Assembly: GCA_003229375.1 (NCBI GenBank)
Contig: QIDP01000076.1
Span: 1-37,540 of the forward strand
From: Nitrospirota bacterium
GTDB lineage: Bacteria > Nitrospinota > Nitrospinia > SZUA-224
DNA length: 37,540 bases
Direction of reading: 5' to 3'
Part shown: positions 16,880 through 25,068 of the stretch, piece after piece
How the letters are laid out: the number at the start of each line of letters is the position of its first letter
Numbering within the stretch: the first letter of the stretch is position 1
Translations under genes and position numbers: made by a program
Notes under the pieces: generated by a model
The model's input: only the letters and a program-made list of their open reading frames with translations
Database searches by the model: none
What the model was told of the DNA's origin: nothing

Positions 16880-17491
16880 ATGAGTTCTGAAATAGACGCT
16901 ATAAGAGAAAATAGGAATATAACCACATTTATTCCCTTCATATTACTCATAACAGTTATGTTATTCATCGTATTTAGCTCAAATGTAAGGAGAGAGAGAG
17001 GGCCTGATGTCAATAACAAGGCCAAGCATCGTGCATCTCCTGCCATGGGTCATATAGCACCGGATTTTACCTTGCCGGATATTAGCGGGATTAATAATAT
17101 TACACTATCTGAGTTAAGGGGAAAGGTTGTGTTCCTCAACTTCTGGGCCACATGGTGTGCAACATGCAGGGAAGAGATGCCTTCCATGGAAAAAATCTAC
17201 CAGAGGTTTAAAGATGACGATTTTGAGATGCTAACAATCAATATAGACAAATTCGGGAAATCGGTAGCAGAGCCATATATGAAAGAACTGGGGTTAACCT
17301 TTCCTGTACTTCTGGATCCGGATGGTAAGGTTTCCAGGATGTATCAACTCACAGGTGTCCCTGAAACCTTTATTATAGGCAAGAATGGTGTGATTGTTTA
17401 TAAGGCTATAGGTCCTGTGGAATGGGCAAAAGAAGCCTGGTTTGATGCATTTGATAATCTTATTAATAAAGGTTCATCTTCATATGAATAA
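16880..17491 (+). CDS. TlpA/ResA-type membrane-anchored thioredoxin
   Basis: A 203-residue protein with one amino-terminal membrane segment (about residues 14-34) and a periplasmic thioredoxin fold of the AhpC/TSA-Redoxin class. The redox-active pair lies in FWATWCATCREEMPSMEKI (CATC). Further family marks are APDFTLPDISG before it and the cis-proline stretch TGVPETFIIGKNGVIV. It should reduce or exchange disulfides outside the cytoplasm, for example in cytochrome c maturation, but no such gene is near. CGGAGG precedes the ATG. Its end overlaps the PgeF gene by 8 bases, indicating coupled translation. Confidence 0.9.
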   Translation: MSSEIDAIRENRNITTFIPFILLITVMLFIVFSSNVRRERGPDVNNKAKHRASPAMGHIAPDFTLPDISGINNITLSELRGKVVFLNFWATWCATCREEMPSMEKIYQRFKDDDFEMLTINIDKFGKSVAEPYMKELGLTFPVLLDPDGKVSRMYQLTGVPETFIIGKNGVIVYKAIGPVEWAKEAWFDAFDNLINKGSSSYE

Positions 17492-18269
17492 TTTTCATAA
17501 ATCGAAATTTAAGTTCATACGTATCCCTGAATTGGAGAAAAATGGGGGAGTGATACATGCCTTCAGTACCAGACACTCTTTCAACATGGCCTTTAACGGT
17601 CATGACAACCAGGAGGAGATATTAAAAAATAGAATAGTCTTTGGTGAAGCAATTGGAATAGGGGCAAGGGAGATTGTAACAGTAAAGCAAATTCATGGGG
17701 AACAGGTCATCACCCTAAAAGAGAGAAATATTAATATCGATTGCATTAGGAGCAAAGAAGGAGATGCTATCATAACCAATCTCAGAGGACTCCCTATTGC
17801 TGTTCTCACTGCGGATTGTCTTCCAATACTACTTATAGATCTCTACAGAAGGGCTATCGCGGTAGTTCATGCAGGAAGGATAGGGACCTATTTAAGGATT
17901 GTCCGGAAGACTGCAAAGGAGATGAAGAACACCTTTGACATTCTTTCTAAAGATCTATTAATAGGCATCGGTCCCGGGATAGGGGGATGTTGCTATGAAC
18001 TTGATGAGAGGGGAATCCAACCGTTTAGAGAGGAGACCTCTTATTATGATGATTTTATCGATAGACGAGGGAAGAATAGATATCTTCTGGATTTAGCAGG
18101 GGCCAATGAGAGACAGCTCCTGGAACTTGGGGTACTGTCAAAGAATATCTTCTCTACACGGTTATGCACTGCCTGTGATACTGAAAACTTTTTCTCTCAC
18201 AGGGCTGTAAGGGGAGAGGATAAAAGGATGATGGGTCTCATAATGCTCTCCGAGTTTGCAGAATTGTAA
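17484..18269 (+). CDS. pgeF: Peptidoglycan editing factor / laccase-domain (YfiH family) protein
   Basis: A 261-residue protein with the YfiH/DUF152 signatures: VTVKQIHGEQV, PIAVLTADCLPILLID, AVVHAGRIGTYLRI (the usual VHAGWRG with changes at two places), GIGPGIGGCCYEL and the closing FFSHRAVRGEDKRMMGLI. The conserved His and two Cys that bind zinc or copper are in place. Family members have been reported both as cytoplasmic peptidoglycan-precursor editing enzymes (PgeF) and as purine nucleoside phosphorylase/polyphenol oxidase. The ATG at 17484 overlaps the upstream stop; an in-frame ATG at 17442 lies inside the upstream gene and lacks a ribosome-binding site. Its stop codon falls inside the target duplication of a small mobile element. 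Confidence 0.88.
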   Translation: MNNFHKSKFKFIRIPELEKNGGVIHAFSTRHSFNMAFNGHDNQEEILKNRIVFGEAIGIGAREIVTVKQIHGEQVITLKERNINIDCIRSKEGDAIITNLRGLPIAVLTADCLPILLIDLYRRAIAVVHAGRIGTYLRIVRKTAKEMKNTFDILSKDLLIGIGPGIGGCCYELDERGIQPFREETSYYDDFIDRRGKNRYLLDLAGANERQLLELGVLSKNIFSTRLCTACDTENFFSHRAVRGEDKRMMGLIMLSEFAEL

Positions 18270-18270
18270 A

Positions 18271-18410
18271 CCGAAAAATAGACATAGAAATTCTTGAGAG
18301 CTTCAAAACCTCAGTAGGACAGCCGTCTCGGCTGTCCTTGAGTTTAACCCTTCTGGACAGGCGAGACGCCTGTCCTACCAGCGTTTGGCATCTCTATGCC
18401 TATTTTTCGG
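18271..18410. mobile_element. 140-bp MITE-like element with 20-bp TIRs and TGTAAA target duplication
   Basis: Ends: CCGAAAAATAGACATAGAAA at 18271-18290 and the reverse complement of CCGAAAAATAGGCATAGAGA at 18391-18410, 18 of 20 matching. The hexamer TGTAAA occurs directly outside both ends (18265-18270 and 18411-18416), as expected of a target duplication. Inside are two perfect 9-bp hairpins, GGACAGCCG/CGGCTGTCC (18317-18337) and GGACAGGCG/CGCCTGTCC (18355-18375), facing each other. It contains no gene. The left duplication includes the pgeF stop codon. Confidence 0.8.
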
Positions 18411-18435
18411 TGTAAACAAACTGTAAACAACAAAC

Positions 18436-18464
18436 TTGACACTCATCTTATGATGTAATAATAT
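18436..18464 (+). promoter_or_regulatory. Sigma70-type promoter for dac-clpB
   Basis: TTGACA at 18436-18441 and TAATAT at 18459-18464 with a 17-bp spacer. It lies between the 140-bp element and the composite element at 18476-18626, so the transcript would carry a roughly 225-base leader with strong G/C hairpins before the diadenylate cyclase gene. No heat-shock (CIRCE or sigma-32-like) site was seen before clpB. Confidence 0.55.
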
Positions 18465-18475
18465 TTAAAAAATAG

Positions 18476-18626
18476 TAATAGTTCAGCATCCCCTCCCCCT
18501 AACCCCCTCCCGCTAGGGGAGGGGGGATTTTAGAGGGAATTTGATAGTTTTTTTTCTTTGATGGTGTGTCCTTTTCTTGTCCCCTCCCCCTTGAGGGGGG
18601 AGGGTTAGGGTGGGGGTGAACTATTA
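18476..18626. repeat. 151-bp composite repeat with G-quadruplex-forming tracts
   Basis: Ends TAATAGTTCA (18476-18485) and TGAACTATTA (18617-18626) are perfect 10-bp inverted repeats. Just inside each lies a C-rich/G-rich hairpin with CCCTAACC-type words. 18595-18616 has four G-runs (6, 3, 3 and 5) separated by 1-3 bases on the plus strand, a canonical G-quadruplex pattern; the left part has a similar pattern on the minus strand. It occupies most of the 5' leader of dac. No coding sequence is present. Confidence 0.65.
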
Positions 18627-18697: not shown

Positions 18698-19627
18698 ATG
18701 GCTACAAAAAAAGCTGTAAAGGCTAAGATTGAGACATCCAGGAAGGAAAGAGAGGAGCCTCTAAATAAGGTAATTATCGAATCAGCCAGTGAGATAGCTG
18801 CAAAGATAAAGGCAAATACTATCCTCTTATGTGCTGATGTGATAGATGATTATGACATATTGAAAGATCTGTCAAAAAGGCAAAATATAATATTTGTGAC
18901 AAGGAACGAAGAGACATTCAGGAAGGCCTCAAGGATGGTAAAGGAGGTACTTATCGTACCAAATGTCAATCTCACCCGTGTTGGACAGATAAAGATAGCG
19001 GTTGTTATGGCACTATCCGCAGGTATTGTGGGAAAGGGGGATAAGATCGTTTGTATATCGGGTATACCGAGATTGGGTTCCCTCGATAATATTGTAGTAC
19101 TGGATATAGGGAAGGAGTTCGAGATACTGACATCTAATAATATATCAGTATCAGATATAACGGTTAAGTTAAGACCCGAGGTATTCGAGACAGTTCTCAA
19201 CCTTGCTGTAGAACTTGCCAATCAGGGCAGAGAGGGTAAGGCGATAGGTGCTATGTTTGTCATCGGGGATGAGGAAAAGGTATTGCAACTCTCCCGTCAA
19301 ATAATAATAAATCCCTTCAGGGGCTATCCGGAAGAGGAGAAAAATATCGTGGACCCTGGTTTAAGGGAGACGATCAAGGAGTTCTCAGCTATAGATGGGG
19401 CCTTCATTATACGTGAGGATGGGATAGTAGTCTCTGCAGGCAGACATCTAAGTGTTGCCCTGGAAAAGGAGGAGTTTCCCCAGGGGTTAGGGAGCAGGCA
19501 TATTGCAGCAGCCGGGATCACGTCAGTGACAGATGCAACGGTAATAGTCATCTCTGAATCGACCGGTACTGTGCGTATATTCAAGAATGGTGTGATATTT
19601 ATGGAGATTGAAAAATCTTCTAAATAA
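18698..19627 (+). CDS. Diadenylate cyclase, DacZ-like (PK-C-like domain plus DAC domain)
   Basis: A 309-residue soluble protein. The carboxyl part (about 205-309) is a DisA_N/DAC domain with the two nucleotide-binding motifs AIDGAFIIREDG (Asp233-Gly234-Ala235) and GLGSRHIAAAGIT (Arg267-His268), then TVRIFKNG. The usual RHR is RHI here, as in archaeal-type enzymes where the third residue varies. Residues about 25-190 resemble the pyruvate-kinase C-terminal-like domain that precedes DAC in archaeal DacZ proteins. It should condense two ATP to cyclic-di-AMP. There is no membrane segment, so it is not CdaA-like, and no DisA helix-hairpin-helix. GGAGAGG lies before the ATG. The clpB start is only 9 bases after its stop. 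Confidence 0.82.
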   Translation: MATKKAVKAKIETSRKEREEPLNKVIIESASEIAAKIKANTILLCADVIDDYDILKDLSKRQNIIFVTRNEETFRKASRMVKEVLIVPNVNLTRVGQIKIAVVMALSAGIVGKGDKIVCISGIPRLGSLDNIVVLDIGKEFEILTSNNISVSDITVKLRPEVFETVLNLAVELANQGREGKAIGAMFVIGDEEKVLQLSRQIIINPFRGYPEEEKNIVDPGLRETIKEFSAIDGAFIIREDGIVVSAGRHLSVALEKEEFPQGLGSRHIAAAGITSVTDATVIVISESTGTVRIFKNGVIFMEIEKSSK

Positions 19628-19636
19628 GGTGACCTT

Positions 19637-22309
19637 ATGCGATTCGATAAGTTTACATTAAAGGCTCAGGAGGCGATTCAGGAGGCCCAATCAATAGCGG
19701 ACAAGCATGGACATCAGACTATTGATGTTGAACACCTTCTGCATGCCCTCATTGAACAGAGCGGCGGGGTAGTTGTACCTATTCTTCAAAAGTTAGGTGC
19801 TGATCCAAAGATCATTCTTGAAAAGGTGGTAGAAAAATTAGAAAAACTCCCCGGGGTATCTGGCAGCGGGGCCATTGGACAGGTCTATATCTCCCCGAGG
19901 CTGAAACAGGTAATGGATTCTGCCTTTAAAGAGGCAGAACAATTAAAGGATGAGTATGTAAGTACCGAGCATCTCCTTATTGCTATTGCTGATGAAAAGA
20001 ATGGAGTATCTTCGGCTATTCTCTCTTCTGAGGGTGTAACCAAAGATATCATCCTTAAGGCAATGGTCAGTATCAGGGGTTCTCAGAGGGTAACTGACCA
20101 GAGTCCGGAAGATAAGTATCAGGCACTCTCTAAATACAGCAGGGATCTGACAGATATGGCCAGGAAAGGGAAACTGGATCCTGTCATAGGACGGGATGAC
20201 GAGATAAGGAGGGTGATTCAAGTCCTCTCCCGCAGAACCAAGAACAACCCTGTTCTGATAGGTGAACCCGGGGTGGGGAAGACAGCTATCATAGAGGGAC
20301 TGGCCCAGAGGATAGTTAATGGCGATGTGCCTGAGGGTCTGAAGAATAAGAGACTGGTAGCCCTTGATATAGCTGCATTAATCGCAGGGTCAAAGTACCG
20401 TGGTGAATTCGAGGATAGGCTGAAGGCTGTTCTAAAGGAGATAAACGAGGCAGAGGGCGGAATAATCCTGTTTATTGATGAGCTTCATACCCTTGTAGGG
20501 GCAGGGGCAGCAGAGGGCTCTATGGATGCCTCCAACATGCTGAAACCCGCCTTGGCAAGAGGTGAGTTAAGGTGTGTGGGTGCTACTACCTTGAATGAAT
20601 ACCGTAAATATATAGAAAAGGATGCTGCGCTTGAGAGGAGATTCCAGCAAGTATATGTGGGCGAACCTACAGTTGAAGATACAATTGCTATACTGAGGGG
20701 TTTAAAGGAACGCTACGAGGTCCACCATGGTGTCCGTATACAGGACGCGGCAATCATTGCCGCATCCACACTCTCCAACAGATACATAACTGACAGATTT
20801 CTACCGGACAAGGCTATTGATCTGATAGATGAGGCTGCATCACATCTCAGGATAGAGATCGATTCTCTCCCAACAGAGATAGATGAAATCGAGAGGAAGA
20901 TTATCCAGCTTGAGATAGAAAAGGAGGCGCTTAAGAAGGAGAAGGATAAAGGATCGACCGGGAGACTCAAAAGGATAGAAAAGGACCTTGGAGAATTAAG
21001 GGAGACCAGCAACCAGATGAAGGCCCACTGGCAGAATGAAAAGGAATCCATAAAAAAGATCCGCTCCTTGAAGGAAGAGATAGAAAAGGCAAAGCTGGAG
21101 GAGCAGATGGCAGAGCGAAGTGGGGACCTTGGCAAAGTGGCCGAGCTGAGATACGGGACACTTATGCAGCTTCAGAGGGATATAGATAGTGAGAATAAGA
21201 GGTTGGCCGGGCTTCAGAAGGACAATAGAATGCTCAAGGAGGAGGTAGATGATGAGGATATTGCCAGCATCATAGCACAATGGACAGGGATTCCTGTCTC
21301 CAGGATGATGGAGGGAGAGATAGAGAAGCTGGTGAAGATGGAGGAGCGGCTTAAGAGACGGGTTATCGGTCAAGATGAGGCAGTCATATCAGTATCCAAT
21401 GCAGTAAGGAGGGGCAGGGCAGGACTCCAGGATGTTAACCGTCCTATTGGTTCCTTTATATTTCTAGGGCCCACAGGTGTTGGGAAGACAGAAACAGCAA
21501 GGGCACTGGCAGAGTTTCTTTTTGACGATGATCAGGCAATGGTGAGGGTGGATATGTCCGAGTATATGGAGAAATTTTCAGTGTCACGCCTTATAGGCGC
21601 ACCACCAGGATATGTCGGGTATGATGAAGGTGGGTATCTTACAGAGGCTGTGAGGAGAAGGCCATATTCCGTAATACTCTTTGACGAGATAGAGAAGGCA
21701 CATTCTGATGTATTTAATATCCTGCTGCAGGTACTTGATGATGGGAGATTGACAGATGGACATGGACGGACTGTTGATTTTAAGAATACAGTAATTATAA
21801 TGACCTCTAATATCGCCAGTCAACTGATACAGGAACCCGGTATGAGGGATAAAGAGGAGAGTGTGAACACGGCTCTTGATAAAAATACAGAGGAATATGT
21901 ACACGCCCTTCACGAAAGAAAGATATACCAGGAGATGAGGGAAAGGATATTGGAGGAGTTGAGATCCCAATTCAGACCCGAGTTTCTAAACAGGGTCGAC
22001 GATATAATAATCTTCCATAATCTTAAGGCAGAGGATATAAAATCTATTATAGATATCCAGTTAACCAATCTTTGTAAGAGACTTGAAGAAAAAAAGATTG
22101 ATCTGAAACTCACCGATGCAGCAAAGTCTCTACTTGCAGAACAGGGATTTGATCCTGTCTATGGTGCCAGACCCTTAAAGAGGGCGATACAGAAAGGTAT
22201 TCAGGACACCCTTGCACTGAAGTTATTAGAAGGAACATTCTCAGGGGGGGATACAGTATTGGTTGATGCTGATAAAGATAGAGGGGAGATGATATTCCAA
22301 AAAGGCTAA
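19637..22309 (+). CDS. clpB: ATP-dependent disaggregase ClpB
   Basis: An 890-residue Hsp100 protein, slightly longer than the usual ~860. Order: Clp N-repeats (1-145), first AAA+ module with Walker A GEPGVGKT (about 209-216) and Walker B ILFIDELH, the coiled-coil middle domain (about 400-530) that marks ClpB rather than ClpA/ClpC, second AAA+ module with GPTGVGKTE (about 611-619) and [10 protein letters not shown], and the D2-small domain with [16 protein letters not shown] ~20-residue insertion ([21 protein letters not shown]) follows [10 protein letters not shown]. ClpB pulls proteins out of aggregates together with DnaK. AAGGTGA precedes the ATG; very likely co-transcribed with the diadenylate cyclase. 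Confidence 0.97.
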
Positions 22310-22317
22310 TAATATCT

Positions 22318-23640
22318 ATGCAAAAGAGAAAGGACCTGTATTTAATTATCCTGCCGGGAATTGCCTTGAGTATAATCTACAGTATAATCGCTCTAAAAAG
22401 TAATTGGTGGGTAGAGATCCTTTTAATAATTATCTTATATCTTACCGCATCCATTCCATATCTCATCTCCCTTTTTATCCTGAAGGATAAGGGGATGGAT
22501 GCAATCTCTGTAAAAAAGAGATTATATCTAATAATATTTTTCTCAATCCTATTCAGGATAATACTCCTGCCATCTCCCCCTTCCCTCTCGGATGATATTT
22601 ACAGGTATCTCTGGGATGGAAGAGTCCAAAGCCACGGGATAAACCCTTATAAGTATCCCCCAAATTCTGATAAGTTGGCTTTTCTCAAAGATGAATATGC
22701 AGACAAGGTAAACGAACCTACACGTCCTACAATCTATCCCCCATTAGCACAGATCGTCTCTCTTGCCGGTGTGAACATATCTTATACAGTTACATTTATG
22801 AAACTAATCTATGTAATTTTTGATATCCTATTGATATTTGTTATCTATAAAATACTCCTTTTCAGAGGGGATAATATCTTAAAGGTAATAATCTATGCAT
22901 GGAACCCTGTGGCGGTAATAGAGTTTGCCTCAAATGGCCATAACGATTCAATGGCGATATTCTTTTTGTTTCTCTCCTTCTACCTTGCAATGAAAGACAG
23001 ACCCTTCCTCTCTGTATCATCCTTATCCTTCTCGGTTCTTTCAAAATATACCCCGATGATTCTCCTCCCTTTTTATTACAAAAAGATAGATAAAAGGGCC
23101 ATCCTCCTCTTCCCTCTTATAATAATTGTATTGTTTTGGCCGTACCGCAATGGTATAGAGGAGCTCCTCGGGGGTATAAAGATATACTCACACCTCCAAA
23201 AGTTTAATGATAGCATCTTTTATATACTTCACTCCATATTCTTGCACTATTTGAAAGATTATTACAATCCATGGCATCTTGCTATGATCGATTCCAAGAT
23301 GGTGATAGTGGTTATACTAATTTCTGTTTTTATGTACCTTTTTATAAAGAATAAAGAACTTGAATGGTCAGCATATATTATAATCGGGTTGTTTATAATT
23401 CTCTCCTTCCAGGTTCAGCCATGGTATCTCATGTGGATCCTCCCATTTGTTTGCATCTACAGAGGCAGGGCATGGATTGTACTCACATCTCTTATTCCTC
23501 TTTCTTACTATACCTATGTTAAATTTTATTCACCTGAAAAGATATGGCATGAGTCTTTGATTATAAAGTCCATTGAATATTTCCCCTTTTATTTTTTATT
23601 GATTTATGATTATATAAAGGCTAAAGGCAAAAAGGGATGA
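22318..23640 (+). CDS. Polytopic GT-C/GT87-like glycosyltransferase
   Basis: A 440-residue protein with about ten to twelve hydrophobic segments. After the first segments comes the extracytoplasmic acidic loop SPPSLSDDIYRYLWDGRVQSHGINPYKYPP, whose DD pair and YLWDGR are characteristic of lipid-phosphate-sugar-dependent mannosyltransferase-like GT-C enzymes. Further marks are YAWNPVAVIEFASNGHNDS and VQPWYLMWILPF. It would transfer a sugar from a polyprenyl-phosphate donor to a glycolipid or surface glycan; donor and acceptor are unknown. Its start is 8 bases after clpB, so it may ride on the same transcript. A clear paralog lies at 25093-26454 on the other strand. Confidence 0.78.
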   Translation: MQKRKDLYLIILPGIALSIIYSIIALKSNWWVEILLIIILYLTASIPYLISLFILKDKGMDAISVKKRLYLIIFFSILFRIILLPSPPSLSDDIYRYLWDGRVQSHGINPYKYPPNSDKLAFLKDEYADKVNEPTRPTIYPPLAQIVSLAGVNISYTVTFMKLIYVIFDILLIFVIYKILLFRGDNILKVIIYAWNPVAVIEFASNGHNDSMAIFFLFLSFYLAMKDRPFLSVSSLSFSVLSKYTPMILLPFYYKKIDKRAILLFPLIIIVLFWPYRNGIEELLGGIKIYSHLQKFNDSIFYILHSIFLHYLKDYYNPWHLAMIDSKMVIVVILISVFMYLFIKNKELEWSAYIIIGLFIILSFQVQPWYLMWILPFVCIYRGRAWIVLTSLIPLSYYTYVKFYSPEKIWHESLIIKSIEYFPFYFLLIYDYIKAKGKKG

Positions 23641-24529: not shown

Positions 24530-24751
24530 ATGAAAGTTAAAGATGTCCAGGAAATATCACAATTAAGTGTGCCAGAAAAGATACTTTTTCTTGAGGAACT
24601 TTGGGACAGTATTTTGCCTGCTGATTCGGAAATTCCTGTGCCGGATAGCCATAAATACGAGTTGGACACTAGATTTGAAAAGCATTTGAACTCTCCGGGA
24701 AAATTATTATCTCTAAGTGAATTGCAAGAGCGTATCGAGAGAAGAAAATGA
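24530..24751 (+). CDS. Antitoxin, addiction-module component (TIGR02574-like)
   Basis: A 73-residue protein matching the short putative addiction-module antitoxins: VQEISQLSVPEKILFLEELWDSI at the amino end and a tail with the pattern ...SLSELQERIERRK. It is expected to bind and silence the toxin encoded next and to repress its own promoter. GGAGG lies eight bases before the ATG. Its last four bases (ATGA) overlap the toxin start, typical of a coupled pair. The leader from 24372 contains a weak match to one end of the TGTAACTATTCAG element near 24389 and a TATAAT box near 24465. Confidence 0.82.
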   Translation: MKVKDVQEISQLSVPEKILFLEELWDSILPADSEIPVPDSHKYELDTRFEKHLNSPGKLLSLSELQERIERRK

Positions 24752-25068
24752 CTTATTCCCTATCCTTCCTCCCTGAAGTGGAGGAAGATGCAGTAAATAG
24801 CTATAGTTGGTATGAGGAAAAAGCCATTGGACTTGGGGAGGAATTTCTTCGAATGTTTTATGCACTTGCTGGAGATATAGCAAGAAATCCTTTAATTTAT
24901 CAAGTTATATATAAAGATTTCAGGCGTTGCCTGCTAAAACGGTTTCCATATGCGGTTTATTATAGGATTGAAGAAAACAAAATAATAGTATATGCTCTAT
25001 TCCACTGTGCGAGAAAACCTACTGTATTAAGGAAAAATTTGCGTTTACGAGAATATAAAAATCGCTAA
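24748..25068 (+). CDS. RelE/ParE superfamily toxin
   Basis: A 106-residue protein of the ParE_toxin type: LSFLPEVEEDAVNSYSWYEEKAIGLGEEFL with the usual WYE...GLG--F helix pair, then DFRRCLLKRFPYAVYYRIEENKIIVYALFHCARKP, the beta-sheet core of the family. Relatives either cut mRNA at the ribosome (RelE) or poison gyrase (ParE); the activity of this branch cannot be decided by eye. It is translationally coupled to its antitoxin by an ATGA overlap. The gene is complete and intact, with a convergent neighbour 24 bases after its stop. Confidence 0.87.
   Translation: MTYSLSFLPEVEEDAVNSYSWYEEKAIGLGEEFLRMFYALAGDIARNPLIYQVIYKDFRRCLLKRFPYAVYYRIEENKIIVYALFHCARKPTVLRKNLRLREYKNR

Follow-up and report, generated by a model that had tools for sequence, protein, structure and literature searches.

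A DacZ-type diadenylate cyclase gene adjoining clpB in a Nitrospinota genome

The dac-clpB locus and its products

The analyzed DNA (hereafter the window) is a 37.5-kb contig from a Nitrospinota MAG. The following features were identified in and around the dac-clpB pair:

17442..18269, + strand, pgeF-type (PF02578) gene upstream of dac (TIGR00726, 169.7 bits)
18297..18604, strand not applicable, palindromic repeats filling the pgeF-dac gap (repeat search, sequence)
18698..19627, + strand, dac, DacZ/CdaZ-type diadenylate cyclase (Pfam, NCBIfam, homologue alignment, dN/dS)
19622..19636, + strand, dac-clpB junction AAATAAGGTGACCTT, with a Shine-Dalgarno (SD)-like AAGGTGA overlapping the dac stop
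19637..22309, + strand, clpB, Hsp100 disaggregase of 890 aa (TIGR03346, 1377.1 bits, cut-off 1232.1)
22318..23640, + strand, GT87-like membrane glycosyltransferase (weak Pfam GT87 match, under the cut-off)

The dac open reading frame encodes a protein of 309 aa. The PK_C-like sensor domain DacZ_P was found at aa 26-145 (61.1 bits, cut-off 27.4), where the PK_C model also passed (32.8 bits, cut-off 28), and the C-terminal DAC domain (PF02457) at aa 174-299 (85.6 bits, cut-off 27). With all three above their Pfam cut-offs, the DacZ-like PK-C plus DAC architecture proposed in the preliminary description was borne out. The best NCBIfam match was the haloarchaeal DacZ model NF041371, at 151 bits and under its cut-off of 430, and the models for CdaA (TIGR00159, 46.4 bits, cut-off 188.8), CdaM (45.7/225), CdaS (45.4/225), and DisA (23.2/201) were not reached. 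Judged by these matches, the protein is a relative of haloarchaeal DacZ and not the haloarchaeal equivalog. The archaeal branch of the DacZ tree was very long, and the tree fixes neither the root nor a transfer from archaea. An AlphaFold2 model made with five sequences as input was poor (mean pLDDT 42). No second DAC was found in the MAG (2.56 Mb, 93% complete), and a contig search with the single window protein returned four relatives only, all described as Nitrospirae, Nitrospinae, or Nitrospinota.

The stop codon of dac (TAA, 19625-19627) and the clpB start (ATG, 19637) are separated by 9 bp, and no terminator was detected by the scan of this junction. The earlier statement that dac lies 9 bases before a clpB with its own ribosome-binding site was thereby confirmed for the spacing, with the SD-like motif as the candidate site, and clpB is genuine. 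The GT87-like gene starts 8 bp past clpB and is also located 3' of clpB in the congener G001 (tblastn, L015). Directly 5' of dac, pgeF was found in the congener G002 as well, and it was not found beside dac in other families (tblastn). The pgeF-dac gap of G002 is about 60 bp and has no dense palindromic repeats; those of the window are probably an insertion particular to its genome. Further downstream, a ParE-like toxin gene (PF05016) was observed at 24748-25068, with no adjoining antitoxin candidate among ORFs of at least 90 aa.

Active site and the cyclic di-AMP circuit

The window DAC was aligned with 11 further homologues from Nitrospinota and with two DacZ sequences of haloarchaea (Haladaptatus). 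Its motifs are DGA (aa 233-235), GSRHI (aa 265-269, RH at 267-268), and SE (aa 286-287); DGA, RH, and S-E were invariant across the aligned DacZ wherever the sequence covers them. On this alignment, RHI is a family trait and no defect, because RH is followed by I, V, or L in every Nitrospinota homologue covering the position and by H in the haloarchaeal DacZ. The suspicion that RHI may abolish cyclase activity found no support here. A DAC domain rendered catalytically dead by RHI in place of RHR is very unlikely: RHR is present in the bacterial CdaA sequences aligned, but the hydrophobic third residue is shared by the Nitrospinota homologues, the remaining motifs are intact, purifying selection on dac is strong (dN/dS 0.11-0.15 within the genus, three species; 0.08-0.09 for clpB), and the phosphodiesterase PgpH is retained. 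The window gene encodes a real and probably active DacZ-type cyclase.

The preliminary description had noted that the window is devoid of a cyclic di-AMP (c-di-AMP) phosphodiesterase and of any obvious receptor. This proved uninformative, since the genome encodes PgpH and TrkA_C proteins elsewhere. PgpH has the full domain set (7TMR-HDED 153.8, 7TM 141.3, HD 57.6 bits), and in the relative G009 it sits in a phoH-pgpH-ybeY-like setting. The suggested search for GdpP/PgpH-type enzymes was therefore positive for PgpH and negative for a GdpP/DhhP-type enzyme, the two DHH proteins of the genome being RecJ and a DHH-CBS-polyA-polymerase fusion. The receptor search yielded three proteins with TrkA_C (RCK_C): TrkA itself (two TrkA_C domains), a CPA-type exchanger, and a CitMHS transporter. 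The presence of TrkA_C is weak evidence, because it was found in 13 of 14 control genomes, some of them without a DAC. The E. coli control genome yielded no DAC. The CitMHS transporter with TrkA_C domains (L081 220-2187, G000:C117) is a possible further c-di-AMP target. From these gene contents, the likeliest function of the window DacZ would be in an ordinary circuit of synthesis, breakdown, and ion transport.

Across a set of 77 Nitrospinota genomes, DacZ was found in 12, belonging to families f1, f2, f3, f4, and f6, and was absent from f5, f7, f8, and f9; with five families covered, DacZ is the resident DAC class of the phylum. PgpH was above the cut-off in nine genomes, eight of the 12 with DacZ and one of the 65 in which no DacZ was found. 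That single genome (G017) is incomplete and belongs to a genus in which DacZ occurs, and the other 64 had no PgpH. The association (Fisher p 2e-7, a value inflated by shared descent) clusters on the tree, and one or a few joint losses may be its cause. Four genomes with DacZ (G003, G005, G011, G015) yielded no PgpH; three of these are 81-87% complete. ClpB was not found in G004, G007, and G009, all with DacZ, and occurred without DacZ in G022 (f7), G031 (f8), and G043 (f9). DacZ therefore tracks PgpH, and not ClpB, across the 77 genomes.

Conservation and regulation of the gene pair

The dac and clpB genes were surveyed in relatives of the window genome. In all three species of the genus, clpB follows dac, with gaps of 9 (window), 66, and 129 bp, the last containing a 12-pair terminator-like hairpin (G002). 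G019, of genus g10 in family f6, carries a duplicate of the initial clpB codons, closed by a stop, 89 bp past the dac stop; two small genes (DUF7718, DUF5647) come next, and the intact clpB lies 764 bp from dac. The inserted stretch (L025 7210-7909) at the 5' end of clpB left a duplicated clpB start of 17 residues ending in a stop, and it resembles a small mobile module able to restore the start of the gene. A truncation of dac in G019 was only apparent, being an assembly gap of Ns. The second g10 genome, G013, has a dac-clpB gap of 987 bp with a MazF-like toxin-antitoxin pair (named by sequence appearance only) on the opposite strand (L023 1728-2286). G013 and G019 have their post-dac sequence in common, and direct dac-clpB adjacency is therefore ancestral to both. 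In G003, G005, and G011, clpB was located away from dac. The adjacency thus held for the genus and, as the ancestral state, for g10; it was absent elsewhere, and the 9-bp spacing was not conserved.

The 5' neighbors of dac differ, with pgeF in the window genus versus S-adenosylmethionine synthetase-like, phospholipase-D-like, and NYN genes in f6 (the first two named by sequence appearance only). The order of these f6 genes was conserved among L021, L022, L024, and L025. Apart from generic response-regulator matches, none of the other tested window genes near dac was common to the genus and g10 loci (tblastn). Because f1 and f6 were joined in the unrooted ClpB tree, apart from f2, f7, f8, and f9 and with full support, the dac-clpB adjacency may date from the f1/f6 ancestor.

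Perfect CIRCE sites were found in the window genome before groES-groEL and beside hrcA. The window had none, even when three mismatches were allowed. No sigma-32-like site was found before dac-clpB, and the number of sigma-70-like matches in the gap upstream of dac was no better than chance.

Known systems and interpretation

The window protein resembles DacZ of Haloferax volcanii and DacY/CdaZ of Methanocaldococcus jannaschii in its PK_C-like N-terminus, C-terminal DAC domain, and DGA motif. The DacZ/CdaZ enzymes of these two archaea synthesize c-di-AMP, and DacZ is the only DAC in the H. volcanii genome (PMC6741144); in the window genome, likewise, only one DAC was found. Unlike the archaeal enzymes, the window protein has a bacterial host, I and not H as the third motif residue, and about 31% identity to Haladaptatus DacZ; the neighboring gene is clpB, versus mscS2 for H. 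volcanii dacZ. The premise that this family is foreign to bacteria did not hold, since some bacteria have it (PMC6741144), and five Nitrospinota families do here. Neither is c-di-AMP unusual in Gram-negatives, as had been assumed: the literature already describes it in Porphyromonas (PMC9259658), Chlamydia (PMC12422730), and Leptospira (PMC12974146).

The CdaA enzyme is anchored in the membrane and linked to GlmM. The CdaA-CdaR-GlmM module of Gram-positives and others has a DAC domain, a PgpH-type phosphodiesterase, and RCK_C targets in common with the system described here, but the N-terminal part of the window protein matches DacZ_P and not the CdaA model. A DAC gene adjoining an Hsp100 gene is known from Bacillus: consecutive ctsR, mcsA, mcsB, clpC, radA, and disA are listed under CtsR/SigB in B. 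pumilus (PMC3896406), and disA of B. subtilis is regulated by CtsR (PMC10633939). The Bacillus operon differs in having the DNA-scanning DisA with ClpC under CtsR/SigB control, whereas the window has DacZ with ClpB; the regulatory search here covered CIRCE and sigma-32-like sites. Both the enzyme class in a bacterium and the placement of a DAC gene next to one for an Hsp100 protein are thus already known. A literature search on c-di-AMP plus ClpB turned up no work connecting the two.

The best explanation, to which a probability of about 0.75 is assigned, is a soluble DacZ cyclase acting in an ion and osmotic circuit with PgpH, its position before clpB being an inherited pairing and not an obligate machine. 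The DacZ/CdaZ-family enzyme would join two ATP molecules into c-di-AMP, and binding of a metabolite by the PK_C-like domain probably tunes this activity. The c-di-AMP formed would most likely control ion and osmotic homeostasis through transport proteins containing RCK_C, and PgpH would degrade it. On this account dac would be an old resident of Nitrospinota, and the short dac-clpB pair would bring about no more than joint expression, presumably by co-transcription, in some genera, and no obligate DacZ-ClpB machine. The conservation of this gene order within the genus, and the trace of it in f6, count against this explanation and remain to be explained.

That order has two other readings. It may be neutral, simply retained from an ancestral arrangement without any joint function of the two genes; this reading is compatible with the preferred account of the enzyme and has roughly even odds. 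The loss or absence of adjacency in most DacZ lineages, the variable spacing, and the insertions speak for it; against it, the flanking genes of f1 and f6 differ, yet dac and clpB stayed together beyond full gene-order scrambling. Alternatively, the two genes could form a functional stress operon, in which c-di-AMP rises, or ClpB follows c-di-AMP, upon aggregation or ion imbalance. The pairing in the genus and ancestrally in g10, the scarcity of other genes common to these loci, and the Bacillus precedent favor such an operon. It is nevertheless improbable, as the pair is not adjacent in three DacZ-bearing genomes, each gene occurs without the other, the gap varies and in one congener holds a terminator-like hairpin, g10 tolerates insertions, and the window is without CIRCE despite the perfect sites at groESL and hrcA and without a sigma-32-like site. 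The functional coupling to ClpB envisaged at the outset was accordingly not supported, with the genes apart in most other DacZ lineages, each occurring alone, and DacZ tracking PgpH. A direct connection between c-di-AMP and disaggregation may exist, but it is unproven and the less likely reading. Slightly more doubtful than the stress operon is the proposal that some Nitrospinota co-express a PK_C-sensor cyclase with ClpB in a joint stress response of c-di-AMP and disaggregation, as a second, independent DAC-Hsp100 pairing besides clpC-disA of Bacillus.

The DAC-Hsp100 neighborhood is a testable one, the pairing alone showing no new signaling link. As the enzyme type was already known from some bacteria and dac is paired with the chaperone gene only in part of the group, the finding is useful but modest. 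DacZ-class cyclases are documented across several Nitrospinota families, and DacZ with PgpH is a likely c-di-AMP circuit in this phylum.
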